From Paraescarpia echinospica (taxonomy: Eukaryota; Annelida; Polychaeta; Sabellida; Siboglinidae): DNA of 64,000 nt. The notes under the pieces were generated by a model that saw only the letters and a list, made by a program, of their open reading frames with translations, was not told the origin of the DNA and did no database searches. How positions within the stretch are numbered: the first letter of the stretch is position 1; each line of letters starts with the position of its first letter. The position numbers and the translations under genes were made by a program. Location: NCBI GenBank assembly GCA_020002185.1, contig CM034531.1, forward strand, positions 49,595,629-49,659,628, read 5' to 3'. Shown here in pieces: positions 23,386 to 64,000 of this stretch.

Positions 23386-23632
23386 TCACACAAAGTCCAC
23401 CTTCCCAAGTTCCTGCCCACTCTTTCTGCCATTGTCTCCTTCCTCCGTAGATATTGGTTCTAGATAATCAGACGACTCCAGTCGGATGTTCATGTACATT
23501 GGTTCGCCTCCTTCCAGGGGGAAGCGTTTCTTTGATGGTGGGTTGAGCAACAGTTCAAGTTGGTTGACCAGGTCAATGAAGCTCGGCCGCTTCTCTGGCT
23601 TCGCGTGCCAACATTCGCACATTATCTTGTAG
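23386..23632 (-). CDS. MET: Kinase-receptor exon K27: kinase end, docking tail, stop
   Basis: Acceptor tgctccacag, stop TGA at 23388-23386. It encodes [30 protein letters not shown] and a tail of about 50 residues with [18 protein letters not shown] and the end GKVDFV. The two tyrosines 11 residues apart recall the paired docking tyrosines of the MET/RON tail; YMNI fits a Grb2 (YxN) site. Confidence 0.94.
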
Positions 23633-32600: not shown

Positions 32601-35600
32601 ACTAAAGTGTAACATTGGCCAAGTTGTGACAGTAATTACATTGAGAATATTTTGTTAATAAACTATTGTAGGGGGAAATGTACCTTTTCCAATGACATCA
32701 CCAATCTCGAGCCTCTCTCGTGGCACCAGCACCTCCTGAATGGTGCGCTTCAGGATGGTGTCATGAATGCCATCAAGGACAGCACTCAGACAGGCTGCAT
32801 GGTACACAGTTAGACATGAGTAGACATTCACACATAAAGTTACACATCTACATAGGTATATACACAGTTACATACAGGTACAATGACATTTACGGATAGT
32901 TACAACAATAATACTTACAGACAGTTACAATGACACTTATAGACAATTACAACAATAACACTTACAGATAGATGACACTTACTGATAGTTACAATGACAC
33001 ATACAGACAGTTACGATTACATTCACCAATAGTTACAAGAACATTTAACAGGAATTGTCATCAATGCAATAAACATAGATACTCATATATACATATACAG
33101 GGATATATTCACAGATATAGGAACATTTACAAACAGTGACCGAGACATTTACACACATTTGCAGAGATGGTTAGATTAGACTAACGTGATCAAAGGTTAC
33201 GCAGCACAAGAAATACTTTACAATCAAGTGGAATGGCAGCAAAAAGAGACAACAATATTTTTTTAACAAACGCTTAACCAAATGTCACAAGTTTTATTAA
33301 ATCTATCTAAAGCACACTAGAAGCCACCCTGACCATTGCTGCTGCCCTGACCATCGTTGAGGTCACTCGCCACGTCCTCGTCCGACCTCAGAGGGACCAT
33401 CTCGAGTGCCTGGCCATTGCGGTCAGTATTCGCCGCGTTATCCTGCTGGTAGCGGTACATCGGCCGCAGACTGCCCGCAGCGTCCGGCACCAGCTTGACC
33501 ATTGGCTTCTTGTGCGTCTGGGAGTAGTGGCGTCGCAGGCAGATGAAGAGGAGAAAAAGGAGGATGAGGAGGAGAGGGAGGGAGACACCGAGAGCAATCC
33601 CCAGGATGAGGAGCATCGGCGGGGAGCCGCTCTCCTCCATGTAGTGCAGGAAGCCAATGTCAGCCCGGAAGTTGCCCAGAGTCACCTGAGCAAACAGGCT
33701 CATGGTTAGCTTCTGGTTAATAACATTACATGATGATACATGATAACAATAATAACACTAATAATAAAATAACTTCTTTAGTACCAACATCCTTGGAAAG
33801 TCGAAGCTCAGCGGTGCAACAAAACCAAACTATTAAGCGTTCTAATACCCGTGTAGAAAAAACAAAAGTCATCAACAGGTGGATGGAATTGCTAAGAAGC
33901 TAAGGACAACGTGCAGTATTAAAAACATAGTTTTTTAGATGACGGCGAAATTGAACTATATTTCTTGCTTAACTTAATGCTAACGTGATTTTACAATAGA
34001 AACAACCCTACTGTGCACCTTCAATTTTAATGTTATTAGCTAGATATATTATGTATATATGTGATAGACTACTATGGTTTGGCCTGTAAAATATGCTCTG
34101 CTCATCAGACAAAATTCAAAAATGCATTCGCGAGGTGAAAGCATAATTTTTTTGCAATTTTAGAAATAAAAATTAATTTGTTATTGGTTTGAATAATACA
34201 ATTTTGGATTAATATATCAAAACAGTGTTTTGATGCAAGTTTTTGTTTGAATGACATGTGATTTTTAAAATAAATACCTAACTTGGCTTTGATTAGTGTT
34301 CAAAAAATAATAAACGTTCAAACCACTGCACATACAATGTTACTTTTACTGTATGCATAGATGCCCTTTAACATGGTGCCCATAGATGCCCTTTAACATG
34401 GTGCCCATAGATGCCCTTTAACATGGTGCTCATAGATGCCCTTTAACATGGTGCTCATAGATGCCCTTTAACATGGTGCTCATAGATGCCCTTTAACATG
34501 GTGCTCATAGATGCCCTTTAACATGGTGCTCATAGATGCCCTTTAACATGGTGCTCATAGATGCCCTTTAACATGGTGCTCATAGATGCCCTTTAACATG
34601 GTGTTCATAGATGCCCTTTAACATGGTGCTCATAACGCCATAGCACCAAAATGTACCGTAAGGTCTGAACTGTCACAACCCGTCTCAGAATAACATCTTG
34701 AGCACCAGAATTGATGGCAATGAACCACAATTTGTTTTAATAAAATGTGACGTAAAGCACCATAGAGCACGCACCGATTATATGGTGCTATATAAAGTTG
34801 TGTTTTAATCATTACTCATTCAATCAAACATGGATTCATTGAACAAGAGTTCTCATTCCTCCTCACCATGACTTCGGCCTTCCTGTCTTCACTGAGGTGT
34901 AGTGGTTGACGTGGCGGCACACACAGGATCTGATTGGTCTGGAAGGCGGTCACATTGCACGGGGAGCTGCCCACCAGGATGTGGAAGGTCTGGGGGAAGT
35001 GGCCCAGCACATTCAGGTTCTCTCCCTGGAGGTAACACATCAAAGGATCATTGTAAGTCCCGTCACAAACACATCAAAGGTTCATTGTAAGTCATGTCAC
35101 AAACACATCAAAGGATCATTGTAAGTCCCATCACAAAGACGTCAAAGGATCATTGTAAGTCCCATCACAAACACATCAAAGGATCATTGTAAGTCCCATC
35201 ACAAACACATCAAAGGTTCATTGTAAGTCATGTCACAAACATATCAAAGGATCATTGTAAGTCCCGTCACAAACACATCAAAGGTTCATTGTAAGTCCCA
35301 TCACAAACACATCAAAGGATCATGTAAGTCCCATCACAAACACATCAAAGGATCATTGTAAGTCCCATCACAAACACATCAAAGGTCCATTGTAAGTCAT
35401 GTCACAAACACATCAAAGGATCATTGTAAGTCATGTCACAAACACATCAAAGATTCATTGTAAGTCATGTCACAAACACATCAAAGGATCATTGTAAGTC
35501 CCGTCACAAACACATCAAAGGTTCATTGTAAGTCATATCACAAACACATCAAAGGATCATTGTAAGTCCCATCACAAACACATCAAAGATTCACTGTAAG

Positions 35601-38600
35601 TCATGTCACAAACACATCAAAGGACCGCTGTCAGTCCTGTCACAAATATATAAAAGGATCATTGTAAGTCATGTCACAAACACATCAAAGGACCGCTGTA
35701 AGTCCTGTCACAAACATAAAAGGATCATTGTAAGTCATGTCACAAACACATCAAAGGATCATTGTAAGTCTGGGGAAAATGGCCCAGGACGTTCACGTTC
35801 TCTCCATGTCACAAACACATCACAGGACTATTTAAGTCCTGTCACAAACACATTAAAGGATCATTGTAAGCCCCATCCCAAACACAACAAATGATCACTG
35901 TAAATCTGGGGGATGTGATTCAGGACATTCGTGTTTTCTGTAACAAATACAATGTAGGTAAATCTCTGCAGCTCAACAAATCAGGATAATATAATTTATA
36001 TTTCTCTACAATCTACAACAAATTCTGCTAAAGCACCGCACTATCAATTTGATTCATCACCATACAGTGGTGCAACCTTATGGGTTTGATTCATCACCAT
36101 ACAGTGGTGCAACCTTATGGGTTTGATTCATCACCATACAGTGGTGCAACCTTATGGGTTTGATTCATCACCATACAGTGGTGCAATCTTATGGGTTTTA
36201 TTCATCATCATACAGTGGTGCAATATTATGGGTTTTATTCATCATCATACAGTGGTGCAATATTATGGGTTTGATTCATCATCATACAGTGGTGCAACCT
36301 TATGGGTTTGATTCATCATCATACAGTGGTGCAATCTTATGGGTTTGATTCATCATCAAACAGTGGTGCAATCTTATGGGTTTGATTCATCATCAGACAG
36401 TGGTACAATCTTATGGGTTTGATTCATCATCATACAGTGGTGCAATATTATGGGTTTTATTCATCATCATACAGTGGTGCAATATTATGGGTTTGATTCA
36501 TCATCATACAGTGGTGCAACCTTATGGGTTTGATTCATCATCATACAGTGGTGCAATCTTATGGGTTTGATTCATCATCAAACAGTGGTGCAATCTTATG
36601 GGTTTGATTCATCATCATGCAGTGGTGCAATCTTACGGGTTTGATTCATCATCATACAGTGGTGCAATCTTACGGGTTTGATTCATCATCATACAGTGGT
36701 GCAATCTTACGGGTTTTATTCATCATCATACAGTGGTGCAATCTTACGGGTTTTATTCATCATCATACAGTGGTGCAATCTTACGGGTTTGATTCATCAT
36801 CATACAGTGGTGCAATCTTATGGGTTTGATTCATCATCATACAGTGGTGCAATCTTATGGGTTTGATTCATCATCATACAGTGGTGCAATCTTATGGGTT
36901 TGATTCATCATCATACAGTGGTGCAATCTTATGGGTTTGATTCATCATCATACAGTGGTGCAATCTTATGGGTTTGATTCATCATCATACAGTGGTGCAA
37001 TCTTATGGGTTTGATTCATCATCATACAGTGGTGCAATCTTATGGGTTTGATTCATCATCATACAGTGGTGCAATCTTATGGGTTTGATTCATCATCATA
37101 CAGTGGTGCAATCTTATGGGTTTGATTCATCATCATACAGTGGTGCAATCTTATGGGTTTGATTCATCATCATACAGTGGTGCAATATTATGGGTTTGAT
37201 TCATCATCATACAGTGGTGCAATATTATGGGTTTGATTCATCATCATGCAGTGGTGCAATCTTATGGGTTTGATTCATCATAATACAGTGGTGCAATCTT
37301 ATGGGTTTGATTCATCATCATACAGTGGTGCAATCTTATGGGTTTGATTCATCATCATGCAGTGGTGCAATCTTATGGGTTTGATTCATCATAATACAGT
37401 GGTGCAATCTTATGGGTTTGATTCATCATCATACAGTGGTGCAATCTTATGGGTTTGATTCATCATCATACAGTGGTGCAATCTTATGGGTTTGATTCAT
37501 CATCATACAGTGGCTCAATCTTATGGGTTTGATTCATCATCATACAGTGGCGCAATCTTATGGGTTTGATTCATCATCATGCAGTGGTGCAATATTATGG
37601 GTTTGATTCATCGTCATACAGTGGTGCAATCTTATGGGTTTGATTCATCATCATACAGTGGTGCAATCTTATGGGTTTGATTCATCATCATACAGTGGTG
37701 CAATCTTATGGGTTTGATTCATCATCATACAGTGGTGCAATCTTATGGGTTTGATTCATCATCATACAGTGGTGCAATCTTATGGGTTTGATTCATCATC
37801 ATGCAGTGGTGCAATCTTATGGGTTTGATTCATCATCATGCAGTGGTGCAATCTTATGGGTTTGATTCATCATCATACAGTGGTGCAATCTTATGGGTTT
37901 GATTCATCATCATACAGTGGTGCAATCTTATGGGTTTGATTCATCATCATACAGTGGTGCAATCTTATGGGTTTGATTCATCATCATACAGTGGTGCAAT
38001 CTCATGGGTTTGATTCATCATCATACAGTGTTGCAATCTCATGGGTTTGATTCATCATCATACAGTGGTGCAAACATATGGGTTTGATTCATCATCATAC
38101 AGTGGTGTAATCTTATGGGTTTGATTTATCATCATACAGTGGTGCAATCTTATGGGTTTTATTCATCATCATACAGTGGTGCAATATTATGGGTTTTATT
38201 CATCATCATACAGTGGTGCAATATTATGGGTTTGATTCATCATCATACAGTGGTGCAACCTTATGGGTTTGATTCATCATCATACAGTGGTGCAATCTTA
38301 TGGGTTTGATTCATCATCAAACAGTGGCGCAATCTTATGGGTTTGATTCATCATCATACAGTGGTGCAATCTTATGGGTTTGATTCATCATCATACAGTG
38401 GTGCAATCTTATGGGTTTGATTCATCATCATACAGTGGCGCAATCTTATGGGTTTGATGTACAAATAAAAAGTTGCAATATACGAACAGTTCATCTGGAT
38501 CAGAATTTTTTAAACAGTGGCCAATACAATCATAACAATATGACTTAGATGACATATGATGACATAGATGCTACACAACGACATGTGATGACATAGATGA

Positions 38601-53600: not shown

Positions 53601-56600
53601 CAGATCATTAAGGGTTATGATCGAAATCAAATGTTGACATGTTTACTGCATTTTGGGGGGGCTGTGTCAGCCTTCTTCTCATGTGATGTAGAGTACAAGG
53701 AGAAAACTTGTCTCCTTTGTTATTTGCTATTTACCTGAATGATTTCGAACACTGTTAGTCATAATTATAAGGGATTTGACATGGCAGCTGGTGAAATTTA
53801 CAACCTTAGTGATGATGATGTAGACATGTTCTTGCAAATGTATGTTCAACTATATGCTGATGATACTAGAATGATTCAATCAAATACAGATTTCTTGTAT
53901 ATAGCGGAACTATGTCAACTCTTCTAATGGTTGACATGTGGTTGTTTCAGGATGACCCCTTAGAATGTAGACACAACTGTCCAGGGGTCTAGAGGGTGCT
54001 GTGTGTCTGTTGACCCAAGCCTCTGCCAGTAACCAATTACAGATTAGTCACAGTTTCCACCAGCAGCCACAGTGACCCAAGCCTCTGCCAGTGACCAATT
54101 ACAGATTAGTCACACTTTCCACCAGCAGCCACAATGAGGTGTGACAGATGTTGTGGGAAAAGAGATTAGTTGAACAAAAGAACTGCAAGCCTGCTAGATT
54201 ATCTGCTGCAGTAGACCATTTAGTTAGCAAATTTAGCATTTTAGGGGACCTTTGGTGCCCTTAGAATGATTCAATCAAATACAGATTTCTTGTGTACAGT
54301 GGCACTACCACATGAAATGGCTATGCAAAATTAGAGAAAAAGTTATTTAAGAGTTTTTGAAAAAATAGGCAAAATGTGAAAATTTACCAGTTTTGGGGTC
54401 CTTTTTGGGGGTTCATTAGGTGCCCTTAGATTGATTCAATCAAATACAGATTTCTTGTGTACAGTGACACTACCACGTGAAATGTATATGCAAAATTAGA
54501 GAAAAAGTTGCTGAACAGTTTTTTGAAAAAAATAGGCAAAAATGTTACATTTTTACCAGTTTTGGGGTCCTTGGAGGCCCTAGGGAGCCCTTAGAATGAT
54601 TCAATCAAATATAGATTTCTCGTGCATAGTGGCAGTGCCCTGTCTATGCAAAATTAGAGAAAAAGTTGCTGAAAGGTTTCCGAGATACGGCAGCTAACGG
54701 CGGACGGCGGATGCAGAGTGATGGGACTAGTCCCTTGGACCTTCGGCCAAAGGACTAAAAAGCTGTTCAAGCACACAATTCCACAACTTTCTTTCGGCTT
54801 GTGCTCATAAATACAGAGCAAAATACAACACAAATAACAATGACTGCAGTCTTTATCACACATCTAGTACCTGCAAGTTGATGACAATGACATCGACTGC
54901 AGATGACACCCCCGCAGGGATGAGTAGTTCCTTCGTCTCAGACGTTGAGAGACCACCCTCTCCCACCAGGGAGCTCACCCACGGGCACGAAGAAGAACTC
55001 TGAAAGTAAAAGAAAAAAATTCACTAAATGTATCCAGAATGTTTGCATAAATTAATTGACGTATCCACACATGACCTGTTGCCTAGCAAGCCATAAGAAA
55101 GGCTGCCAAACTCGTGGAGCATTTGCATATTCCATCCTATATATTGTTGAAATTCCCATCCCGAACATTTTTCTTTATAACAAAAACAGGTTCTTTTACT
55201 TCCCCTGGCATAGACACCAGATAGAAGGGAATTCCCCAAGTTTTGACACGGCAACCGAACCAGTACCGAACCACCGTCCAGTGGCACCAGGATTCGAACC
55301 CCAATCCCTCCGAACTCTAACCACTCGACCACTGCACCCCACATGACACTCACCGATATATCCTGGTTGTTAGTGCACTCAGACGCATTGTTGACACAGC
55401 TGCCATCTAGTGGACACCACACACAACCAAACTTTGTTTCCGTACAACGAGCACAGCTGAAAATAGTTTCAAAAATTATATCAATTTATATATTATGTGA
55501 CATGGTTGGAAATTACTAATATCAATGGTGTAATACAATACTTAATAATAACTTTATTGTCATTTATATAACTGTGTGTGTGCATGAATGCATGCATGTA
55601 AACGTGTGTGTATGTGCATGCACAGAAGTATTTGGGAATTTAATAATCACAAAAGAAGTATATTGGGAATTTAATAATCACAAACCTTAACTACCTTTGG
55701 TCAACTACTGAAAACTCATTGTACAAAGACTTAATGTTTCATGCCCGTGGGTTCAACCAACCTGTCCATGAAGGAGCACTGGTAGACAAAGACTGGCCTC
55801 GAGGCAACCCTTGTGTCATTCATCAAAACACTGAACTCCAGCTCGACAAAACCTACAACATCAAACACATCTTCTATTGTTTGACGCCCAAACATTTGAG
55901 GGTGGTACATACACAAGGGGCAGTGATGCTTTCGCCAACAGAAGGGTGTACATTTTACATAGCATTATTGTCATACATAGTAGTACTCTGATACTAAAAT
56001 GTAGAATTAGCCAAACAAATCAATTTTATGATCTGAACATTAAAATATACAAATTTCTTACAAATTACTTAGTGTAAAATGTTTTAAACGTATGAAACAA
56101 TAACCTATGAAGACAACCCCACTATTTTATGCATCATTTATTTAGTTTCTTTGCTGTTTACAAATTTGTTAATTACTCTTGTAATTTTTAGTAATTATGC
56201 TCTTAGTGTAATAGGTGTTTCGTAATTATTACACTGCGATAAAGATGGCATAAAATAAACACTGTCAGATGGTTACTTGGATATCTCTGACTTCACATAA
56301 ACGTTGACTGAAACTTAGTTGTGAGGTGACTGTATTACAGAGGTGACCGTAAAGCGAGGTTCAGCTGTATTGCTTTTCAGTGCAAGAATGTTGAGATAGA
56401 CAACCACATGGTGAAGGGTGAAGGGTGAAGTGGCGGTACCTGTGTCTTTGGGCACTGATGGGATGGATATGAAGGGTTGACAGGTGACCGTGTCAGAGGT
56501 CACACCCTCTGTCGTACTACTCAGCTTCTGCTGGGTCGACTGAAGTTCACATCCAAGTCCCGACTGATCCACAATGAGTTGTACATTGCGCAGGTTCACA

Positions 56601-57323
56601 ACAAACTATAACAAAGTTCACAATAAACTGTCAACAAGCAAACGCATCAGTTGTCATATAGACAGGGAACCTGTTCATTTCATCAACATGTAATCTGAAA
56701 TGATTACAATTAGCAGATACCCAATTTCATAAGGTTCTGTCAATAGTCTCAAAGCCATTTTCAAAGTCAAAAAGCATAGTATCATGAATGTGTAAAATTC
56801 ATCATCAGAATGGAGGAATGCCAAGGATTAAGGGTGAAAATGAAATTTAAGACAAAATTATGTCGAGTTTTGTGTACAGGGTAGCTATAGTTTCAGGTGA
56901 TTCTGAAGTGATGGGGGAAGGTAAATCCAGATTTTCTGCGCAGCTACAGCGAAAGCATGCTGTGAGATAGATGATCTCAGTGGCCTGGGTTACTAGTTGT
57001 GAACTTTTGACCATACAAGGGAGAATCACGACACACAAACCAACCTACCTTTGTATCGCGGAATCTTGATCGGGCAACCATGTATGGGGTCAAGGTGCTG
57101 ATGGCTGGACAGCCACTGCCTAGAAAGGAGACCCAGTTGTGGACGATGTCCGAGCCTGCACACTCGGTGGGCAGCGTGCACCTACAGTCAGTGAGACAGT
57201 GGTCAGAAGATACTCCTAGAGGTAACAAGGTAACTAGTGCTGACAGAAAGCTGGTGCCTGAGTGTATGAGGAGCATAAGAGGAGTGAGACAGTGTAACTC
57301 AGAGACAGAGACTCTTGACAGAA

Positions 57324-57358
<35 letters not shown>

Positions 57359-57359
57359 T

Positions 57360-57418
<59 letters not shown>

Positions 57419-60400
57419 GCCACAGTGGGGTTTGAGGTGAGATGACCATAGACTCACTTGTTCTCTAGCATGCACCAGCCACAGTGGGGGTCAGCTGCAG
57501 CATGGCACGCACCACAACTCTTGTAGGGAGAACAGTTTGACAACTGCACCATGTGCACCTGGAACAAGGCAAAAATATAATATTGTATATAAAAGGATGG
57601 TCTCATGGGTTTACATGGTCCAATGTCACATTATGCATCTAGAGTTGGTTCAAACCAATGCCTCGTATAATATAGAATACACTGGGGAAAACAACGAGGC
57701 ATATAGAATATACTGGGGAAACACAACAATGTATCTAAAATATAATAGGGAAACAATGATATATCTAAAATATAATGAACAAAATAATGATGTATGTAGA
57801 ATATAATGGGAAAACCATGACAAATCTAGAATATAACAGGAAAAACAATGATATATCAAGAATATAATGGGGGAAAACAGTGATATATCTAGAATATAAC
57901 GGGAGAAACCAATGATATATCCAGAATATAATGGGGGAAACCAATTATATATCTAGAATATAATGAGGAAAACAATGACATATCAAGAATATAATGGGGA
58001 AAACAGTTATATATCTAGAATATAATGGGAGAAACCAATGATATATCCAGAATATAATGGGGGAAACCAATTATGTATCTAGAATATAATGGGGAAAACA
58101 ATGAATGATATATCTAGAATATAATGGGTAAAAACATTTATATTTCCTGCATTTCAGTCTTCAAATTTTTTTTTTAAACTTACTATTTTTTATATAAATC
58201 AAGAAAAGCTCAATCATTCAACCAAATACACCCATTGAAGGGTTCATAAACATTCTAATCTGCTGACTAAATTAAATTGTAAAAATATTTTTCTTCCATG
58301 TATTATATACATATATAATAGTTTTACCATTATGAGCTTTCATGTACCCCATATTAATTTATGTGTGCATGTTGAACATACCTGTCATTAGCTTTGTCAA
58401 GTTATCATCTACACTACTGACCCATATACTTTGTACTGTGCACTTTACACGTCCTTATTTAGGTGTTGACATATACACAGTCATTATGTTGTGAAGAGGC
58501 ATCAACTGAAGCCCTCCATTCAATAAGCGGGCACAGTAAGCTGAGATAATCTCTAACAAGATCAGATTGTATGCATCTCCTACAAGTTCACCATATCAAA
58601 TTTAGACATTCAGTAGTCGTGTACATAATGGGTTATGGCACCGATACACACCACACAAATGTATCTACATGTTTAAAACATAATTACTTATATTTAGGGC
58701 AAGACTGAACATCGCCGAGTTCTATATTACTAGGTTGTGCCCTTACATTTCTGCCGAGCCAATGCCATTACGAATAGACCACACACTGTCTGCAGGTCAC
58801 GTTAAGCAAACCGAAGACACACATTCAATGTCAGGGTCACAATCAAGATCAATGTCACAAAGGTCAAACTTCATAATACACACTCAGTGTCGTCACGATC
58901 AGATCAAAATTATATTGTAAAAAATGCACAAAAATACACATGAATGGTCACAAAACCACAAACTTTATGCAAAACAAAATATTCAAGAACATCAAAATTA
59001 AATCCAAGGTCAAGATAGATAGTCAAGGTCAAGTTTCGTCTGATGCACTGTTACCTTTGACGATGTTAGTACGTATGCATGTGTGTCGCTGGAGTTCAGT
59101 AAGAGATCATGCTGGATGGCCATTCCAGGTTCAACGTCCACTATATCATAGACAGTGTCGGGTGTCCGTGGTCCAGTGCTTGACGAAAGCACCATCTGGG
59201 AGACAACAGGAAGGACAGCTCTATCAATGGCAGCAAGACAATCAGTGATCCAGAATTTGATTTTAAAATAGACAGAAATGAAACAAGTTGTCTTTTTATT
59301 CTGTTTAGTCATAAATGAAAAACATATGGTCATTAAAATGGCTTTACAACAAATGACAAACATAATTAAAATGTCTTTATTAGTCTTTGTTTGTTGCTTA
59401 TATGAATATGTATTCAGTTGACAAAATCACAACTCCGAAATCACAACACTGGAATAAGTATATAATATGAAATGTGTACAGAAATCCAATAAAGATTTCT
59501 AAATGATAAAAACCGGCCTTTTGGGATGTTGTACACCGAAAGATAAAAAAAACACCACTGAAAAGCTATGAATTAAACCCTAACCAAATATTTTAATTCA
59601 AAAATGTTCACATAAAAACCTGTGGCCAGGGACAACATTGCCAACATTTTGAGGGTAAACATTTTTTATTTCGCATGACTCTTTGTAAAATGAACAAGAA
59701 AAAAATTGTTGATTTGTCCACCACCAAAATTTTGTATTTGAGAAGTGTCCTAAGTGACCTGAATATTATTAGGGTCATTACGGAATAATTTACTCCCCCA
59801 TGACAAGGCACCAGGGGAACTGAAGAAGGAATTTGCGTTTTAGTGTCTACTTAGCATTATTAGACATGTGTTTCCAATGTCCTCCCCTTATGCAAGTGCT
59901 AGGATGGTGGCAATTAAGATGTGCTGAAATGATATTGAAACACTGACTCACTGAGTGGACTTAGTGACTGCTGATTACCAAGAAGAGGCATAATCTTAAG
60001 CCATGCCTGGTAGTCATGTACTGTAGCTATAGAGCACAGACCACAATAGTATCAGTGCTAACATTTTTGTTTTATTATAAGGAGACTGCACCATAAAAAA
60101 TGCTGAAATGTCCTCTCAGCCACTGCAATAATTTCATCGATTATGCTGGACAAGTTTAGTTTAAATTGTATCTCTCTAGTGTCTTTTAATCATGCTTACC
60201 CTAAAACCGGCATCTTCACCCAATAATAATATGCCCAATATTGTGTTACCACCAAATACTTACACACCACTAAATGCATACATACTGCTTCATGTTTGAC
60301 TCTTTTAATCATGCTTACCCTCAAAATTGGCAGTTTTCACCCAATAGTTATATGCCCAATAGTATTACTTTTTGGAATGCTACAACCGAGCATCTACACA

Positions 60401-63400
60401 CCGTGAAACATCTGACATTTCATGCAATCCAACCAAGCTGGCTGAATACAGACTTTACTTCTTGGCACTTATGTCACTAACATCAGATAGACTGAGTATT
60501 TGTTGGCACTACATTTAACTTAAACACTTCCAGAAGTCTAATTCTGGACTGACCCCTGTTATCATCAATCACTCACCTTCACTAGTTGACCCTGGTCAGT
60601 TCCCAGCAGGGCCACTATAAACTGACCAACAGGCTTCATTGCAAGACTGGTCACCATGTGTCCATTCAGGGGGTGTACACTGATTGCATGGATGGGCTGT
60701 TGCCCCTCCATTGGGTAATTAACCTCATATTGTCCACAGATAACATAATTCTGAAAAACAATGTACCAAGACATAATAATAAAACTAAAAATTTAATTCC
60801 AAACAAACAAACTAGTCATTTCACAAGAGTGCAAATGTCAATATATAATGATTAAGAAAATAACAGCATTTTGTGTTTTCAACAGTAAAAGTCTCATTTA
60901 TAAATTTATATTCACAGTAGCCAAGGTATATTTATGAAACTGAAATAAATGTTTCAAAAGTTTCATTCACTGGATGTATTTAATATTTTAAAGTTGATTT
61001 AAAATAGCATTTGTTAAAATCAGTATGCATAGTCAAGACTTTTTAGCTGATTAATACCAATAGAATTTTACTGGGTACAATGAACACACACATTTATATA
61101 TACAGTGTATATATATATAAAATTATATATCTATGCTGGTATATATAATGTATACGGTTTCTTGGTGACATATTGCACCCAGTAGCTTTAATTGCATCTA
61201 GTGTGATTTGTAAGTAGTCAAGCACATTTTCATGGAAAAGCAGGATATAACCACAGGTTTAGTTACAGTACCACACCTTATAATTTACATTCTCACTTTA
61301 CCTGAAAATATGCTTTGATCTGTGCCGTCTTTAGCCAGCCGGTACAATGGCATGATACTCACCACTATCACAAACCTGGAGAGTGGCAACTGATTGCGTC
61401 ATTGATTATATGTTTCACAGTCAATTATTGTACTCAAACCTGACGTGAAGTCACCAATTAATGCCATCACTGTCACCTTTCTCATCCATCCACTCATCAC
61501 CCACACGGAGAAGGCAGGGAGACACGTCTCACAGCCCACGACAAATTCAATAAGGTCCTGACTGATGGCGTATTAGGACTGGTTAATATGTTGGCGACTA
61601 GTACGCCGACTACATCATCTGATGCTGTGAGAAAACGGCCAAAAAGTAGGCCTTGGATATAGAGTTCCTGGCATGGAACCTGCCACATTCGTTTCAAGGC
61701 CGAAATACATGTTTTGACTTGGAACAATAGTCTGTCATTCAGTGAAAATCTGTAGTATGTTTTGCATTAGTTAACTGTCATATATAATCCCTATTCCAAC
61801 GAGTGTCACCATCTTTCAGGCTATAAAATTGTATAATATATATATATATATATATATAGACTCAACTCAAATCTGAGCTGCGTTTCATTGGAAATCTGCT
61901 TGGCATCAAAAGTAGTTTCTGTTTGGTTGTTATAAGTATAGTTGGACAAGTTGGTCATTCAAATTTATACTTGCATGATCAACACAAGAAAATATTGACT
62001 TCATCACAATTTTTAGTATCTTACAGTGTATGTCAATTCATATGGTGTGGCAGGTGGGTGTACCCAAGTACTCTATATTTCTACATTTTCCTGACTTTGT
62101 AAAGAAATAATACTGTACACAGACATTAACACTTGTCCAGGACAGTTACCCAGATTGGAAAAGTATATTGTCCAAGACACTTATCCGACAGGACAAATTG
62201 ATTTAGTCGCAATATGTACATATATATATATATATATATATACACTGTTTATTAATAGGATGAATTTTTTACACGTTGACATAATGTCAAATTTTAATGG
62301 GAACTACCCTGCAGGTTGATGTTGCAGTTGCATGCACGGCATTGCACACATCACTGCTCATTGTTTTCACTTCACAACGAGACTAATGCCAACGTAGTCA
62401 CCAAGTGGTGGCAGTAGTACTTTTTAAACCACTTAGAAGGCAGAGCAATGATGCCAGGTTAAAAACTTAGAGAAATTAGACCTAGATACATTTGTGACAT
62501 TATTCATTTCAAATGTAATTCTTCCACATAAAACACAGATCGCAATCGTAGTAAAGGCCATTAGTAACGTTATAGCTTGCATATTAACACATCTGCTGTG
62601 ATATTGATACCATCAGCATTTTGTGTTTAATGTAATTTGTTGGTGGGACAAGTAGATTTCTGTTCGGACAAGAAAACTTTCATGAATTTGAACTCGTCCT
62701 ACAGGACAAGTGGTTTCTGGGAATTAATGTCGAGCCCTGACATCTGAAATAAGAAAGGTGAAATAAAATGATGTCAAGACCAACTGTTTCAAGAGAAAAA
62801 AGTGGCATTACATTAAACAAATTATATCCTAGATTTTTTATCCAATAATATCATGGAGTTTATAAAACATGCAAAAAATGGAAAGTAATAGTTATACTAA
62901 AAATATGTTTTGTTTCATGTTAGATAAGGACTGTAAAGTAATACAGGTTTTTAGGATAGGATCTAAAGGTTTAATTTTTTCTATGAACATATGCATGCCT
63001 GTTCTTTTAAAATCAGGAGAATGGGTATCATCAGATAAGCCATGTTGGTTTACTAAACCAATCACCTACATACATGTCAGTAGTTAGTATAATATAAGGT
63101 CTGCTTTCTGTACATGAACATATCAGAGATTTGGATATATAAGATCCTTCGTTCACATTTCAACAGCTCTACAATGAACTAGCATGACCATGATATTTCA
63201 AACATTTAAAGGTCCTCAATTTGGGTTTTTCTTTGCTCATCTTGTTTTAAAACTATTATATTTTCATGTAAAATTGAATCCATCTACTGGTAGTATTGGC
63301 TAAAACATGCTAGTATAGTAGCTTGTTTGCACAAATGTGTTATAATATAATTTTGGTGAAATCATCAAACAAAGTATGGAACTATGTTTACCTTGATCTG

Positions 63401-64000
63401 CTAAAAAATTGGCGATTGCGGGAAAAGTATTCCGGCTCTATATTTATTATAACTTATGGCTATTTACACTTCAGCAAGTTTCCTGATTTAATCACCAAAG
63501 TCAACTTTGCAACAGCAGCACACCATGAACATATATAAATGTTTTTAAAAAAGAAAAGTAATATGGTACATACTGCTTTTGTACAATCCTGAGGCTGCAC
63601 GAGATGAGCAGGTCCAATTGTCCCCTCGCCACGGTAACATTCTCTAATATTCCGCATAAACACAACTTCCACATGCCCCATCGAGTAAGCACAGATAGCA
63701 GCATCCTTAGTCGTCTTTGCCGTCTTTCCCTCGGCTGTAGAGAACGACACAAACAACGCATCCCCGGCATCATTGAATCGGGGAAATCGCTGGTTTGGGC
63801 GGGCAAGATGAGCGGCCGTCGCAAGGGTGTATGTGTGATTGTCCACCGAGCATTCAAGCGGAACTTCGATGTACGATTTGAAGAGATCATCCCCGTGACA
63901 CACGCGCACCAGCCATGTCGAGTACATATCCAGACCATTGACAAGTTTTGGTCGCACGACGACAAAATAGGTGAACGTGGCATGCGAGAATCCAGCCTTG
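23386..64000 (-). CDS. MET: Receptor tyrosine kinase: plexin-type ectodomain on a MET/RON-type kinase (partial, 27 exons)
   Basis: Twenty-seven exons on the minus strand, all with AG/GT borders and compatible phases, encode about 1444 residues; the 5' end lies beyond the right edge. Order: sema (part), PSI1, IPT1, PSI2, IPT2, PSI3, IPT3-6, one transmembrane helix, juxtamembrane segment, tyrosine kinase, short tail. Kinase marks: GKGHFGCVY loop, VAVK lysine, [13 protein letters not shown], the KEYYS twin tyrosines, [17 protein letters not shown]. All catalytic residues are present, so it should be active. The tail has YMNI and DYLEP. The kinase is MET family; the ectodomain has the three PSI and six IPT modules of plexins, whereas vertebrate MET/RON have one PSI and four IPTs. 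The symbol reflects the kinase only. Expected to sit in the plasma membrane and signal by ligand-driven dimerisation; the ligand (HGF-like or semaphorin) cannot be told. Confidence 0.93.
23621..23800. repeat. ~32-bp array carrying the K27 splice acceptor
   Basis: Five extra copies of (t)cttgtagctgtggagcaa, spaced 29-36 bp, follow the real exon edge. On the minus strand each reads ctccacag/CTACAAG, i.e. acceptor plus first exon bases. Confidence 0.88.
23885..24021 (-). CDS. MET: Kinase-receptor exon K26: kinase C-lobe
   Basis: Acceptor gtctccctccag, donor gtaagt. It encodes [39 protein letters not shown] and KYCPDS, the C-lobe [16 protein letters not shown]..(N/D).FDI pattern of MET. Confidence 0.97.
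24290..24700. repeat. Degenerate ~35-bp array next to the K25 donor
   Basis: About 11 imperfect units of accactactagtgacacaga with ccacaaaggggtcag lie within 20 bp of the K25 donor. Similarity of gtggtctgac in the unit to the donor GTG/gtcagtct is suggestive only. Confidence 0.85.
24709..24871 (-). CDS. MET: Kinase-receptor exon K25: DFG and activation loop
   Basis: Acceptor ctgtgtgtag, donor gtcagt. It encodes [54 protein letters not shown]. The twin Tyr of KEYYS match the MET activation-loop autophosphorylation pair. The acceptor plus 25 exon bases are repeated about 27 times upstream. Confidence 0.97.
24872..26360. repeat. 53-bp array: ~27 copies of the K25 acceptor and exon start
   Basis: Each 53-bp unit contains, on the minus strand, ctgtgtgtag followed by GATTGACGATGTGATGACGG and TGAAG, exactly the 3' splice site and first 25 bases of exon K25, then gatataaacatgactgtt. 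One unit lacks 6 bp (near 25510). The last two units are diverged. Copies are nearly identical, implying recent expansion or homogenisation. Confidence 0.97.
26455..27817. repeat. ~20-bp array starting at the K24 donor
   Basis: About 65 copies of gaggtactgggagagggtgt-like units. On the minus strand the array starts cagtacctcacaccctctcc directly after the gt of the K24 donor (gtcagtacctcac). Copies are more varied than in the 53-bp array. Confidence 0.94.
27820..27929 (-). CDS. MET: Kinase-receptor exon K24: catalytic loop
   Basis: Acceptor gtatgttgcag, donor gtcagt. It encodes [37 protein letters not shown]. The catalytic Asp is in HRDLAARN. A 20-bp minisatellite begins 2 bp into the following intron. 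Confidence 0.97.
28580..29925. repeat. 19-bp array, ~70 copies
   Basis: Unit tgtatggaggaggcagcag with variants (gcagag, cattg, caggag). It lies in the K23-K24 intron but 650 bp from the nearest exon. All six frames appear open over long stretches; these are not genes. Confidence 0.97.
30020..30623. mobile_element. 604-bp element with perfect 13-bp inverted ends
   Basis: It begins CAGGGGTAGAACT and ends AGTTCTACCCCTG, exact inverted repeats, and is flanked on both sides by caatg (30015-30019 and 30624-30628), a 5-bp target duplication. Subterminal regions are rich in actagtccgcc motifs. No transposase is visible, so it is non-autonomous (MITE-like), possibly hAT-related. Confidence 0.85.
30794..30978 (-). 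CDS. MET: Kinase-receptor exon K23: kinase N-lobe and hinge
   Basis: Acceptor ttttgctgtag, donor gtgagg. It encodes [38 protein letters not shown] and [32 protein letters not shown] and LPYM..GDLR are as in MET. Confidence 0.96.
31018..31086. repeat. (GT)n microsatellite
   Basis: Imperfect gtgtgtgtgtgcgtgtgt run in the K22-K23 intron, about 40 bp from the K23 exon edge. Confidence 0.9.
31327..32290. repeat. 60-bp array, 16 copies, near the K22 donor
   Basis: Near-identical 60-bp units contain aatgttttctgtgacaatgc, atcagtgtgctacacaaac and ccgctgccagctccccag. One unit is 59 bp (31620). The array ends about 18 bp inside the intron from the K22 donor. It contains no K22 exon sequence. Confidence 0.97.
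32309..32392 (-). CDS. MET: Kinase-receptor exon K22: glycine loop and catalytic lysine
   Basis: Acceptor cttccccag, donor gtacat. It encodes [19 protein letters not shown] and [15 protein letters not shown] is a MET-family signature; the Lys of VAVK pairs with ATP phosphates. Confidence 0.95.
32684..32794 (-). CDS. MET: Kinase-receptor exon K21: juxtamembrane end, start of kinase
   Basis: Acceptor gtaccatgcag, donor gtacat. It encodes [37 protein letters not shown]. The V(I/V)G.G entry to the nucleotide-binding loop matches MET (E-V-I-G-R-G). Confidence 0.93.
32800..33060. repeat. Degenerate ~20-bp array (gatagttacaatgacactta)
   Basis: About ten weak copies of acagttacaatgacatttac follow the K21 acceptor side of the intron. 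It is degenerate and probably old. Confidence 0.7.
33334..33685 (-). CDS. MET: Kinase-receptor exon K20: transmembrane and juxtamembrane
   Basis: Acceptor tgtttgctcag. It encodes [18 protein letters not shown], the helix [20 protein letters not shown] followed by LLFLLFICL, a stop-transfer RRHY and a polar juxtamembrane region ending in [11 protein letters not shown]. Two in-phase donors are possible, gtcagg at 33333 or 18 bp earlier at 33351; I chose the first. Read through either donor, the frame stops at TAG 33317-33319 after GQGGF. Confidence 0.85.
34355..34640. repeat. 25-bp array, ~11 copies
   Basis: Nearly perfect units of catagatgccctttaacatg plus gtgct in the K19-K20 intron, not touching an exon. 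Confidence 0.96.
34867..35025 (-). CDS. MET: Kinase-receptor exon K19: IPT6
   Basis: Acceptor gttacctccag, donor gtgagg, phase 0 to 0. It encodes [38 protein letters not shown] and [10 protein letters not shown], the last IPT before the membrane (VLVG..PC.V......LLC.). Confidence 0.92.
35030..35945. repeat. 34-bp array next to the K19 acceptor, with exon debris
   Basis: About 22 copies of cacatcaaaggatcattgta plus agtcccgtcacaaa begin 5-8 bp from exon K19. At 35768-35803 (gtctggggaaaatggcccag) and 35905-35940 lie two decayed copies of the end of exon K19 itself (exon: tctgggggaagtggcccag). Confidence 0.92.
36040..38458. repeat. 37-bp array, ~65 copies (2.4 kb)
   Basis: Unit ggtttgattcatcatcatac plus agtggtgcaatcttatg, the largest array in the window. 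Variants (cctt, atta, tacg) come in small blocks, showing past duplications of several units at once. It is intronic (K18-K19). Confidence 0.98.
38555..38762. repeat. Degenerate (atgatgacac) array near the K18 donor
   Basis: Imperfect repeats of acatgatgacacatgatgac with gatgacatagatgac fill the last 200 bp before the K18 donor. Confidence 0.85.
38774..39013 (-). CDS. MET: Kinase-receptor exon K18: IPT5 end, IPT6 start
   Basis: Acceptor gtttgttgcag, donor gtgagt, phase 0 to 0. It encodes [54 protein letters not shown] and LVIL. FGFIMD.V and the YPNP-like NPV.YPF are plexin hallmarks. Confidence 0.93.
39014..41430. other. MET: Intron K17-K18
   Basis: Apart from the pogo-like remnant, this holds only AT-rich sequence. 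A short dispersed motif at 39105-39165 (aaaggtaagttcatatacag, cagtcctttggactgc) recurs at 45705-45750 and 45840-45890. Confidence 0.65.
39742..40903. mobile_element. Pogo/Tigger-like DNA transposon remnant
   Basis: The left end CTGTGGAACCTTAATATTAC and the inverted right end CAGTTGAACCTCAGTTTATG are imperfect inverted repeats with further matches inward (cggtcacctt, gaggtgacc). TA stands outside both ends. The CAGT(T/G)GAACCTC terminus is typical of pogo/Tigger elements. The internal open frame (40389-40886 minus) is not recognisable as a transposase. Confidence 0.65.
41431..41530. repeat. ~30-bp array carrying the K17 donor
   Basis: On the minus strand the exon end gagatcatgtccatgtg followed by gtaagtta occurs three times (donors at 41506, 41477 and 41447), with a decayed fourth start. 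Units are 29-30 bp. Confidence 0.93.
41507..41600 (-). CDS. MET: Kinase-receptor exon K17: IPT5
   Basis: Acceptor gtgcgttacag, donor gtaagt. It encodes [20 protein letters not shown] and [11 protein letters not shown]. Its donor and last ~20 exon bases are repeated twice more downstream at about 29-30 bp spacing, so three near-identical donors lie in a row. Confidence 0.92.
41786..43775 (+). mobile_element. Composite repeat with reverse-transcriptase fragment, copy 1
   Basis: About 2 kb, near-identical to 50976-53222. At 42636-42857 it encodes a non-LTR reverse-transcriptase piece with motif A ([13 protein letters not shown]), then after an in-frame TAG the motif B stretch ([15 protein letters not shown]) and, frameshifted, the YADDT catalytic motif near 43012-43026. 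It ends in a GC-rich ggacggcggacg tract and ccttcggccaaaggacta. Dead copy lying in the K16-K17 intron. Confidence 0.88.
42636..42857 (+). pseudogene. Reverse-transcriptase fragment (non-LTR type)
   Basis: 73 residues with [29 protein letters not shown] and [17 protein letters not shown], followed by TAG. The F(I/V)D.KKAFD core is reverse-transcriptase motif A of CR1/L2/RTE-like LINEs. Broken by the stop and downstream frameshifts. Confidence 0.85.
43787..43954 (-). CDS. MET: Kinase-receptor exon K16: IPT4 end, IPT5 start
   Basis: Acceptor cttgttgtcttcag, donor gtgagt. It encodes [39 protein letters not shown] and [17 protein letters not shown] found it by looking for the missing (E/T)DPT(I/V)..I.P passage that links plexin IPTs; phases match K15 and K17 exactly. 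Confidence 0.9.
43955..45124. other. MET: Intron K15-K16
   Basis: No recognised gene. A small open frame at 44434-44553 plus (acidic, [12 protein letters not shown]) could be the start of a transposase-like sequence, but nothing downstream supports it. A candidate small exon at about 44827-44872 minus was considered and not used. Confidence 0.55.
45125..45264 (-). CDS. MET: Kinase-receptor exon K15: IPT4 start
   Basis: Acceptor cacattgttag, donor gtacac. It encodes [37 protein letters not shown] and [10 protein letters not shown] nearer acceptor (ttgacag) would break the frame, so the ttag site was chosen. Confidence 0.92.
45690..46165. mobile_element. SINE-like dispersed repeat
   Basis: It contains a duplicated block (attccatgacactatcgcgg, gcaacagttgtatcggtaaa) and, at 46040-46140, gcccaaggtttgacaccgca followed by gattcgaaccc, a tRNA B-box in reverse. 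Probably a tRNA-derived SINE relic. Confidence 0.5.
46191..46338 (-). CDS. MET: Kinase-receptor exon K14: IPT3 end
   Basis: Acceptor ttcttttcag, donor gtaagt. It encodes [34 protein letters not shown] and VLHFRYV. It completes IPT3 and leads into IPT4. Confidence 0.9.
46937..47088 (-). CDS. MET: Kinase-receptor exon K13: IPT3
   Basis: Acceptor gtgtacttcag, donor gtttgc. It encodes [39 protein letters not shown] and NYVPSM. The P.SGP..GGT....G.NLG motif is a classic IPT/TIG opening. Confidence 0.94.
47455..47885. repeat. CA-rich complex microsatellite
   Basis: Runs of (ca)n broken by atgcacgcactcacac and atgcgcacac, about 430 bp, ending roughly 70 bp from exon K12. Its long open frames on both strands are artefacts of the low complexity. 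Confidence 0.96.
47955..48121 (-). CDS. MET: Kinase-receptor exon K12: PSI3
   Basis: Acceptor actgtttacag-like (atttacag), donor gttagt. It encodes [38 protein letters not shown] and CPHPQITT. The YKC.A...CG.CL...P...CGWC string is very close to plexin PSI3. Its acceptor and first 22 bases are multiplied in the array at 48085-49640. Confidence 0.95.
48085..49640. repeat. 43-bp array: ~35 copies of the K12 acceptor and exon start
   Basis: Each unit on the minus strand reads gtttacag/TTGAGATCTACAAG then YGTGATGC and atgtactgtgtgt, i.e. the 3' splice site and first 22 bases of exon K12. Units near the exon are most alike; those from 48900 on carry shared variants (cacacatcacacttg). Confidence 0.96.
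49901..49994 (-). CDS. MET: Kinase-receptor exon K11: IPT2 end
   Basis: Acceptor gatgccttcag, donor gtaagt. It encodes [19 protein letters not shown] and [12 protein letters not shown]. The W....LD.P...V.(L/I)YKC passage into PSI3 is diagnostic of plexins. Confidence 0.9.
50621..50740 (-). CDS. MET: Kinase-receptor exon K10: IPT2
   Basis: Acceptor taactctag, donor gtgcgt, phase 0 to 0. It encodes [34 protein letters not shown] and TCQAVE. The paired cysteines fit the IPT fold. Confidence 0.87.
50976..53222 (+). mobile_element. Composite repeat with reverse-transcriptase fragment, copy 2
   Basis: Second long copy of the element at 41786-43775, same orientation, about 2.25 kb, in the K9-K10 intron. 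The RT fragment is at 51810-52031 ([13 protein letters not shown]) and again runs into TAG. It has an extra internal duplicate (tttggggtccttggaggccc) and ends cccttggaccttcagccaaa, ggactaaaaa. Confidence 0.88.
51810..52031 (+). pseudogene. Reverse-transcriptase fragment (non-LTR type), copy 2
   Basis: 73 residues nearly identical to those at 42636-42857 ([20 protein letters not shown]), ending at the same TAG, so the break predates the duplication. Confidence 0.85.
53655..54770 (+). mobile_element. Composite repeat, truncated third copy
   Basis: Starts inside the RT region (gctgtgtcagccttcttctc), keeps an intact [15 protein letters not shown] stretch (motif C) at 53844-53888, then two to three tandem copies of the tail block (gattcaatcaaatacagatt, gcaaaattagagaaaaagtt) and the ggacggcggatgcagagtga end. 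Confidence 0.82.
54871..54999 (-). CDS. MET: Kinase-receptor exon K9: start of IPT2
   Basis: Acceptor tactttcag, donor gtacta, phase 0 to 0. It encodes [31 protein letters not shown] and IVINLQ. Plexins have CP.I......LLIP.GV at this spot. Confidence 0.9.
55185..55346 (-). mobile_element. tRNA-derived SINE next to the K8 donor
   Basis: On the minus strand it reads gcagtggtcgagtggttaga (A-box-like), then ggttcgaatcctggtgcc (B box), followed by a tRNA-unrelated body. The tRNA-like end stops about 10 bp from the K8 5' splice site. Not called as a functional tRNA because the cloverleaf is not complete. Confidence 0.7.
55354..55456 (-). CDS. MET: Kinase-receptor exon K8: PSI2
   Basis: Acceptor ctattttcag, donor gtgagt. 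It encodes [20 protein letters not shown] and [14 protein letters not shown]: a C..C.....C.WC.....C......C PSI domain. A second PSI here is a plexin trait absent from vertebrate MET/RON. Confidence 0.92.
55762..55852 (-). CDS. MET: Kinase-receptor exon K7: IPT1 end, entry to PSI2
   Basis: Acceptor gatgttgtag, donor gttggt. It encodes [20 protein letters not shown] and FVYQCSFMD. It joins K8 to give CSFMDSCARC, the opening of the second PSI. Confidence 0.86.
56318..56372. mobile_element. Solo end of the pogo-like element
   Basis: gaggtgaccgtaaagcgagg followed by ttcagctgta matches the right end of the element at 39742-40903. Only this terminus is seen. Confidence 0.55.
56440..56605 (-). CDS. 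MET: Kinase-receptor exon K6: IPT1 (plexin numbering)
   Basis: Acceptor tttgttatag, donor gtaccg. It encodes [36 protein letters not shown] and KDTG. This is the degenerate IPT between PSI1 and PSI2 of plexins; vertebrate MET has no counterpart. Confidence 0.87.
57049..57181 (-). CDS. MET: Kinase-receptor exon K5: PSI1 end and linker
   Basis: Acceptor ctgactgtag, donor gtaggt. It encodes [33 protein letters not shown] and [10 protein letters not shown]. It supplies the last PSI1 cysteines and the CP.I..L.P entry into the first IPT module. Confidence 0.9.
57325..57420. repeat. (ACAG)n microsatellite
   Basis: About 24 tandem copies of acag, one interrupted by acat, inside the 276-bp intron between K4 and K5. 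It is the shortest intron of the gene and one third microsatellite. Confidence 0.97.
57458..57558 (-). CDS. MET: Kinase-receptor exon K4: PSI1
   Basis: Acceptor cttgttccag, donor gtgagt. It encodes [18 protein letters not shown] and [15 protein letters not shown]. The C..Y.SC..C....DPHCGWC pattern is the first PSI domain of plexins and MET. Confidence 0.94.
57575..58135. repeat. ~31-bp array (atatctagaatataatgggg)
   Basis: About 16 imperfect copies of gaatataatggggaaaacaa with tgatatatcta spacers in the K3-K4 intron. Confidence 0.9.
58136..59054. other. MET: Intron K3-K4, remainder
   Basis: No repeat or coding feature recognised. Confidence 0.65.
59055..59195 (-). CDS. MET: Kinase-receptor exon K3: end of sema domain
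   Basis: Acceptor tgtctcccag, donor gtaaca, phase 0 to 0. It encodes [39 protein letters not shown] and AYVLTSSK. Plexins have the same final blade, then the PSI cysteine motif. Confidence 0.9.
59196..60576. other. MET: Intron K2-K3
   Basis: AT-rich. A short duplicated passage (cttttaatcatgcttaccct, cacccaataat) occurs at 60183-60240 and 60301-60360. Nothing else recognised. Confidence 0.65.
60577..60750 (-). CDS. MET: Kinase-receptor exon K2: sema domain
   Basis: Acceptor tttttcag, donor gtgagt, phase 0 to 0. It encodes [40 protein letters not shown] and TDQGQLVK. The (V/F)..GT..G.L.K signature is the end of plexin/MET sema beta-propellers. Confidence 0.92.
60751..63573. other. MET: Intron K1-K2
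   Basis: It contains (ta)n runs near 61105, 61840 and 62220, and dispersed fragments around 62130-62220 and 62640-62740 with repeated ggacaag motifs ending gtcgagccctgac, probably an old DNA-transposon remnant. The open frame 61497-61727 minus does not resemble any sema blade. Confidence 0.6.
63574..64000 (-). CDS. MET: Kinase-receptor exon K1: sema domain (partial)
   Basis: Open to the right edge, donor gtatgt. It encodes [77 protein letters not shown] and RECYRGEG. The pattern F.YF..V.P, S.LVR.C..D..F.SY.E.PL.C and the C.Y/F...H stretch is that of plexin sema domains. The start of the gene is outside the window. Confidence 0.93.

Follow-up and report, generated by a model that had tools for sequence, protein, structure and literature searches.

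A gene on the minus strand of Paraescarpia echinospica (Annelida, Siboglinidae) encodes a receptor tyrosine kinase with a single membrane pass in which a complete plexin-type ectodomain is carried on a MET-type kinase, an arrangement known as Met-LP. It was found in a stretch of 64,000 nucleotides of chromosome CM034531.1 (positions 49,595,629 to 49,659,628 of assembly GCA_020002185.1), hereafter called the window. MET and RON, receptors of major importance in growth and cancer, have HGF-type ligands and a plexin-like outer part. A living receptor in which a MET-type kinase still bears the complete exterior of a plexin lets one ask directly whether MET signalling began as a kinase response to semaphorins. 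We consider it very probable that the gene is a Met-LP as described, with the semaphorin-like signalling proposed below and a kinase lineage that would have arisen before the protostome-deuterostome split.

The gene model was built from open frames and splice signals. It runs from an ATG at position 64683, just past the end of the window, down to position 23386, and comprises 27 exons with AG...GT borders that form a single open frame with no internal stop. Exon 1, which codes for 370 aa and contains the start ATG and the signal peptide, straddles the window end, and its remainder was taken from the same chromosome. The final model has a CDS of 5019 nt coding for a protein of 1672 aa, with the donor of exon 20 at 33334. 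In a first version of the model (CDS 5001 nt, 1666 aa) this donor had been placed at 33352, a choice that was dropped because the protein of a close relative (P0001, see below) reads across the join; the Pfam scan and the search for relatives used the 1666-aa version, and the PDB ectodomain search used its first 1230 residues. An additional short exon inside the first intron (frames VVGVLVANI and GDFTSG) was likewise discarded, since exon 1 continues into exon 2 in phase at the junction of GCA and GTATGT. A sequence-only reading of the window had described 27 exons on one strand joined in phase, and the AG...GT borders and the 1672-aa frame agree with that description. Those of its named motifs that were searched for were all recovered on the minus strand within 23386..64000 (HRDLAA at 27848, DFGLAR..KEYYS at 24840, FGFIMD at 38929, CVWC at 55425 and CGQC at 48086). 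The parts of the gene are as follows.

57544..64000, minus strand: Sema domain, exons 1-3 and the start of exon 4 (Pfam Sema 36.3 bits; Plexin-A4 alignment from residue 35)
Exon 1-4 borders in Sema, minus strand: exon 1 at 64683-63574, then 60750-60577, 59195-59055, and the fourth starting at 57558
55788..57537, minus strand: PSI1-IPT1, exons 4-7 (57558-57458, 57181-57049, 56605-56440, 55852-55762); IPT1 is weak, at 9.7 bits
48117..55781, minus strand: PSI2-IPT2, exons 7-12 (55852-55762, 55456-55354, 54999-54871, 50740-50621, 49994-49901 and the start of 48121-47955); TIG_2 at residues 697-791
46191..48110, minus strand: PSI3-IPT3, exons 12-14 (48121-47955, 47088-46937, 46338-46191)
33629..45264, minus strand: IPT4-IPT6, exons 15-20 (45264-45125, 43954-43787, 41600-41507, 39013-38774, 35025-34867, 33685-33334)
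33334..33685, minus strand: exon 20, with the end of IPT6, the transmembrane helix (33616-33536) and the first juxtamembrane part; followed by a phase-1 intron; donor fixed by P0001
32684..32794, minus strand: exon 21, the plexin/kinase junction exon, with the juxtamembrane segment and the kinase start; phase 1 on both sides
23557..32708, minus strand: MET-type kinase, exons 21-27 (after exon 21: 32392-32309, 30978-30794, 27929-27820, 24871-24709, 24021-23885, 23632-23386)
23386..23556, minus strand: C-terminal tail and stop, with YMNI (Y1637) and YLEP (Y1647)

Long repetitive open frames, which by eye are tandem repeats, are also present in the introns of the kinase part (28474-30097, 26456-27947 and 31295-32349).

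The encoded protein is made up of a signal peptide, a Sema domain, three PSI and six IPT repeats, one transmembrane helix (residues 1240-1260, the most hydrophobic 21-mer) and a MET-type kinase, in this order. The Pfam scan (E up to 1, overlapping stretches allowed) returned one Sema stretch, three PSI, four TIG, two TIG_2 and one tyrosine kinase. Repeat profiles built from 12 plexins only had their best matches in the expected order, i.e. PSI1 at 47, IPT1 at 9.7 (weak), PSI2 at 30, IPT2 at 35, PSI3 at 41, IPT3 at 64, IPT4 at 57, IPT5 at 57 and IPT6 at 61 bits, with at most 1.1 bits for a shuffled copy used as a control. Among PDB structures, the ectodomain was matched by Plexin-A4 across residues 35-1196 with 422.6 bits and by MET best at residues 798-1206, with 157.3 bits for the MET chain. 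The kinase was matched by MET (336.6 bits), ahead of RON (306.1) and MER (279.6); the 368 bits of one chain labelled EGFR are the sum of two stretches of 183 each. Together with the joined frame, the Pfam, profile and PDB matches confirm the central claim of the sequence-only reading, namely that a full plexin-type ectodomain is joined to a MET/RON-type kinase. The Pfam scan of the protein gave no plexin RasGAP domain (PF08337). In the genome, the 12 plexin GAP matches listed lie at 37.54-37.60 and 40.15-40.16 Mb of the same chromosome, and the nearest GAP exons among them are about 9.4 Mb from the gene, the window lying at about 49.6 Mb.

The landmarks of the kinase are GKGHFG at residue 1363, K1389, E1407, D1484, DFG at 1502 and the tandem activation-loop tyrosines 1514/1515. 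Judged from its sequence the kinase has intact motifs, with the catalytic residues (K1389, E1407, D1484 and D1502) in place and activation-loop tyrosines (Y1514/Y1515) of the MET type. The protein shares with vertebrate MET and RON the kinase family, the KEYYS activation loop, the tandem tail tyrosines and an ectodomain containing Sema and IPT. It differs from them in the order and spacing of the tail motifs and in having nine PSI/IPT repeats, whereas classic MET/RON have a Sema domain, one PSI and four IPT. In addition, the DYR motif for Cbl is not among the listed cytoplasmic tyrosines, and no furin site (RX[KR]R) occurs in the whole protein, which may still be cleaved in another way. Compared with receptors of the Plexin-A type, the tyrosine kinase takes the place of the intracellular RasGAP.

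An intron-free counterpart comes from a close relative. P0001, a protein of 1654 aa which is 84% identical over 99%, is encoded by an intron-free stretch on a contig of 7,538 bases and runs across the plexin-kinase join in frame, so that the join is no artefact of the gene model. Such a contig is too small for a 41-kb gene of this structure, so that P0001 represents a spliced form; in all likelihood this is an mRNA, although it could be a retrocopy. Identity to P0001 is 73.1% in Sema, 71-90% in the PSI/IPT segments and 99.2% in the kinase, indicating that the interior is far more tightly held than the exterior. The same layout was found in a hypothetical protein of the annelid Paralvinella palmiformis (LSH36_322g03037; P0002; 36% identity over 99%), where the kinase is 69% identical over 260 aa and the ectodomain only 22-38% per segment, and where the tail motifs YMNI and YLEP are matched by YVNF and YLNP. 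The sequence-only reading had placed the receptor in a deuterostome frame; this finds no support, since the nearest named relative among the matches listed is an annelid.

The two halves could in principle be neighbouring genes misread as one, one for a plexin-like receptor that stops in exon 20 and has no kinase, the other for a MET-type kinase on its own. If the frame is followed past the donor of exon 20, it closes with a stop codon at 33317-33319, and an AATAAA lies about 20 bases beyond; this and the low scores of the exon 20 donors would fit such an arrangement. However, the contig of the relative, 7,538 bases long, contains the joined protein in a single frame, the layout recurs in the annelid protein P0002, the gap between exons 20 and 21 is only about 540 bases, and exon 21 begins inside a codon and thus needs an upstream exon, which together make two separate genes extremely unlikely. 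Separate transcripts for the plexin and kinase exons would have counted against the fused receptor of the sequence-only reading, and the outcome was the opposite, the intron-free contig joining both. The stop and AATAAA nevertheless make a short form lacking the kinase possible.

The layout has been in print since 2019, when Junqueira Alves et al. (PMC6374515) described the same architecture under the name Met-LP in an annelid (Capitella), a mollusc (Aplysia) and a starfish (Acanthaster planci, with four Met-LPs). The published Met-LPs and the present protein have in common the complete plexin ectodomain, a segment that crosses the membrane, and a kinase of the Met-like type. The gene is thus a real and well-supported Met-LP, new as a gene but of a kind already known. 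In the tree of PMC6374515, built on the Sema and PSI domains alone, lophotrochozoan Met-LPs stand apart from Mets and next to plexins from their own animals (branch posterior 0.55), and the starfish Met-LPs group with starfish plexin-Bs (posterior 1.0). From this, two separate kinase gains, in Lophotrochozoa and in Echinodermata, were inferred there, and semaphorins were suggested as Met-LP ligands. A study of the holozoan tyrosine kinome (PMC8662651) cites the paper in a methods remark. Among the papers listed, our literature search met the term Met-LP in PMC6374515 alone and gave no second description of the type in titles or abstracts.

What is added here is the kinase phylogeny. Kinase rows were hand-picked from the matches listed, giving a first tree of 25 proteins (28 kinase rows) and a main tree of 42 rows; the rows of EGFR and DDR and some of the duplicate Met rows appear in the first tree alone. 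Kinases of the same genome were stitched together from tblastn pieces, and a few of these kinases include short stretches derived from introns. Thirteen entered the first tree of this sort, 8 of the 13 (at least 200 aa) a 47-row tree and four a 39-row tree. Three distant outgroups were omitted from the 47-row and 39-row trees, and in the latter long branches were dropped, the Lingula Met-LP, P0241, P0147 and P0098 being left out so that three Met-LPs remain. The Met-LPs of PMC6374515 itself, including those of echinoderms, lie outside this sample, and no echinoderm Met-LP was found among the database matches listed.

In the 42-row tree, in which some rows carry no species name, classic Mets largely follow animal relationships, with support of 99/98 for chelicerates, millipede and lophotrochozoans, 99/96 for hemichordates and echinoderms, and 99/99 for vertebrates. 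The kinases of the window gene, P0001, Paralvinella and P0241 form a Met-LP clade (98/95 with 42 rows, 98/96 with the 13 kinases of the same genome added, 99/95 with 47 rows), which in the 42-row tree sits outside the protostome Mets. Uniting the four Met-LPs with the 12 lophotrochozoan Mets was rejected by the AU test (p 0.0009, 42 rows), while uniting them with all 19 protostome Mets was not (p 0.083). With near outgroups of the same genome (47 rows) both the lophotrochozoan clade (p 0.00013) and the protostome clade (p 0.0175) were rejected, as they were in the 39-row set (p 0.003 and p 0.041), and we read the rejection of the protostome clade in these two sets as only mild. These tests were picked after the first tree had shown the Met-LPs apart from lophotrochozoan Mets, and the p values are thus somewhat generous. 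A classic-Met clade without Met-LP appears in four best trees (64/84 with 42 rows, 85/92 with the 13 kinases of the same genome, 80/90 with 47 rows and 67/80 with 39 rows; never starred), which is suggestive only of Met-LP kinases branching outside the classic Mets. By its kinase phylogeny, the gene most likely belongs to a lineage that parted from classic Met before protostomes and deuterostomes diverged, as opposed to stemming from a recent Met-plexin fusion.

Lingula anatina P0247, named plexin-B-like, is a brachiopod Met-LP whose gene model is without the first part of Sema. Adding it to the Met-LP kinase clade was not rejected (p 0.33, AU test, 42 rows), and with 47 rows its kinase joins another kinase gene of the Paraescarpia genome (on C6; 96/91). 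Furthermore, P0147, which has a MET-type kinase with an Ig-type exterior, branches at about the depth of the Met-LPs in the 42- and 47-row trees, indicating that exteriors have been exchanged within this kinase family.

The ectodomain tree comprised 30 rows, with columns filled in less than 70% of rows dropped (890 of 2026 kept). All 13 Mets group together (100/100), as do four Met-LPs (85/77, with 99/90 for three of them), and the Lingula ectodomain groups with a plexin (88/82). Tests of constrained trees allowed Met-LP to be placed with Met (p 0.214) or with vertebrate plexin A (p 0.438), and rejected a single clade of five Met-LPs including Lingula (p 0.038) as well as one of Met and these five (p 0.029). 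Lingula P0247 may thus represent a second, separate fusion. Separate trees of kinase and ectodomain, proposed as a check in the sequence-only reading, differ in what they yield: the kinase places Met-LP outside the Mets in the best trees, and the ectodomain is compatible with Met-LP grouping with Met or apart from it.

The 13 classic Mets compared all lack the block formed by IPT1, PSI2 and IPT2 (occupancy 0-5% in the alignment). With plexin/Met-LP repeat profiles, the first Met IPT matches IPT3 in 11 of the 13 (34-59 bits), the best IPT3 match of the two remaining rows, both vertebrate, being a later IPT (26 and 35 bits), and Met IPTs match the IPT1 or IPT2 profiles with no more than about 10 bits. 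For the PSI of the Mets, with low scores of 4-29 bits, PSI1 is the better match in 10 of the 13 and PSI3 in the other 3, and the PSI3 match extends further toward the following IPT in all 13. Despite the low PSI scores, this mixed pattern and the missing block are consistent with an internal deletion between PSI repeats.

These observations bear on how the Met-LPs arose. As a tentative reading, Met-LP may be the surviving older form of the MET family: a plexin would have gained a kinase before the protostome-deuterostome split, and Met/RON would have arisen from such a full-length receptor by losing IPT1-PSI2-IPT2 through recombination between PSI repeats, the one PSI left seeming to resemble PSI1 at its front and PSI3 at its rear. 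If so, the separate kinase gains published for lophotrochozoans and echinoderms would be wrong at least for Lophotrochozoa. The alternative, proposed in PMC6374515, is that a plexin captured a Met-type kinase late, within the lineage of Lophotrochozoa. The published placement of lophotrochozoan Met-LPs with their own plexins and of starfish ones with plexin-Bs agrees with it, the plexin affinity of the Lingula ectodomain and the rejected five-Met-LP clade leave room for more than one fusion, and P0147 shows the MET-type kinase on yet another exterior. A captured Met kinase should, however, group with lophotrochozoan Mets, and the rejection of that clade in all three row sets is evidence against a Met gene as the source of a late-captured kinase; we regard such a fusion as conceivable but doubtful. 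The kinase might also have been taken up late from a different, older gene of the MET-like kind, for example one of those in this genome. The kinase trees make the separate-gain scheme of PMC6374515 testable and weaken it for Lophotrochozoa. The idea of a living intermediate, raised in the sequence-only reading, finds some support in the position of the Met-LP kinases outside the Mets in the best trees and in the rejected lophotrochozoan clade; on the other side, the ectodomain tree allows Met-LP beside Met or beside vertebrate plexin A, Lingula may be a second fusion, and the 2019 tree groups the starfish Met-LPs with starfish plexins.

It is also highly unlikely that the gene is a classic Met/RON orthologue with a merely longer-looking ectodomain. 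MET and RON are its best kinase matches, as such an orthologue would predict, but it has nine PSI/IPT repeats where 13 of 13 Mets are without IPT1-PSI2-IPT2, the best trees put its kinase apart from the Met clade, and it is devoid of the RX[KR]R furin site.

For the Met-LP encoded by the window gene, the following working can be proposed from its domains and from what holds for MET and plexins. The ectodomain would fold as a plexin ring and bind an extracellular dimeric ligand, probably semaphorin-like; semaphorins are the first ligand candidates because the exterior is plexin-type throughout. Dimerisation driven by the ligand would bring the kinases together and allow trans-phosphorylation on Y1514/Y1515. 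The tail motifs YMNI and YLEP, which we take to be SH2 motifs of the Grb2 type (YxN) and the Crk type (YxxP), respectively, may then recruit adaptors. In this manner a guidance-type cue might be turned into a growth-factor-type signal in place of Rap GAP activity.

Further MET-like genes were found in the 1.08-Gb assembly. Among at least 150 kinase matches, 20 regions were examined, 15 of which (L013-L027) have MET-like kinase exons; as L013 and L014 count as a single gene place, they amount to 14 places, on C1 (1.76-2.41 and 53.0 Mb), C2962, C3 (21.6 Mb), C5 (20.6 and 55.6 Mb) and C6 (49.4 Mb). In the five loci checked, introns that follow RNC-AT or SDV or that precede WS have the same positions as in the window gene. 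An IPT match in line with the kinase (E <0.01) was present in 4 of the 14 places, and control loci gave no IPT match and four weak PSI matches; the 10-20 kb examined per place are too little to show a complete plexin exterior. L019 contains sequence resembling the exterior of the Ig-type P0147. Near-identical pairs point to recent duplication or duplication in the assembly, and some of these copies may be assembly duplicates. Genome searches with domain profiles were of limited sensitivity: PF18020 gave 0 matches although that domain is present in the window, divided between exons, so that this miss is uninformative, and PF01437 gave 7 matches, including PSI1 of the window and missing its PSI2 and PSI3.

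Outside annelids, five arthropod Met-like receptors (P0246, P0248, P0253, P0255 and P0266), which we take to be from spiders, a horseshoe crab, a millipede and a mite, contain Sema, IPT and kinase in every case and PSI in four (precomputed Pfam). They group beside lophotrochozoan Mets in the 42-row kinase tree; PMC6374515, by contrast, reports Ecdysozoa to have no Mets. A literature search gave no paper on arthropod Met judging by title.

As for the neighbourhood of the gene, exons of a reelin-like gene lie next door on the plus strand (window positions 3402-9112; Reelin_subrepeat-B 86.6 and 67.6 bits; PDB reelin 2e-29). Beyond the window end, long open frames occur at 66356-68305 and 84450-86470 (window coordinates), which by their motifs look to us like reverse transcriptase of non-LTR retrotransposons.
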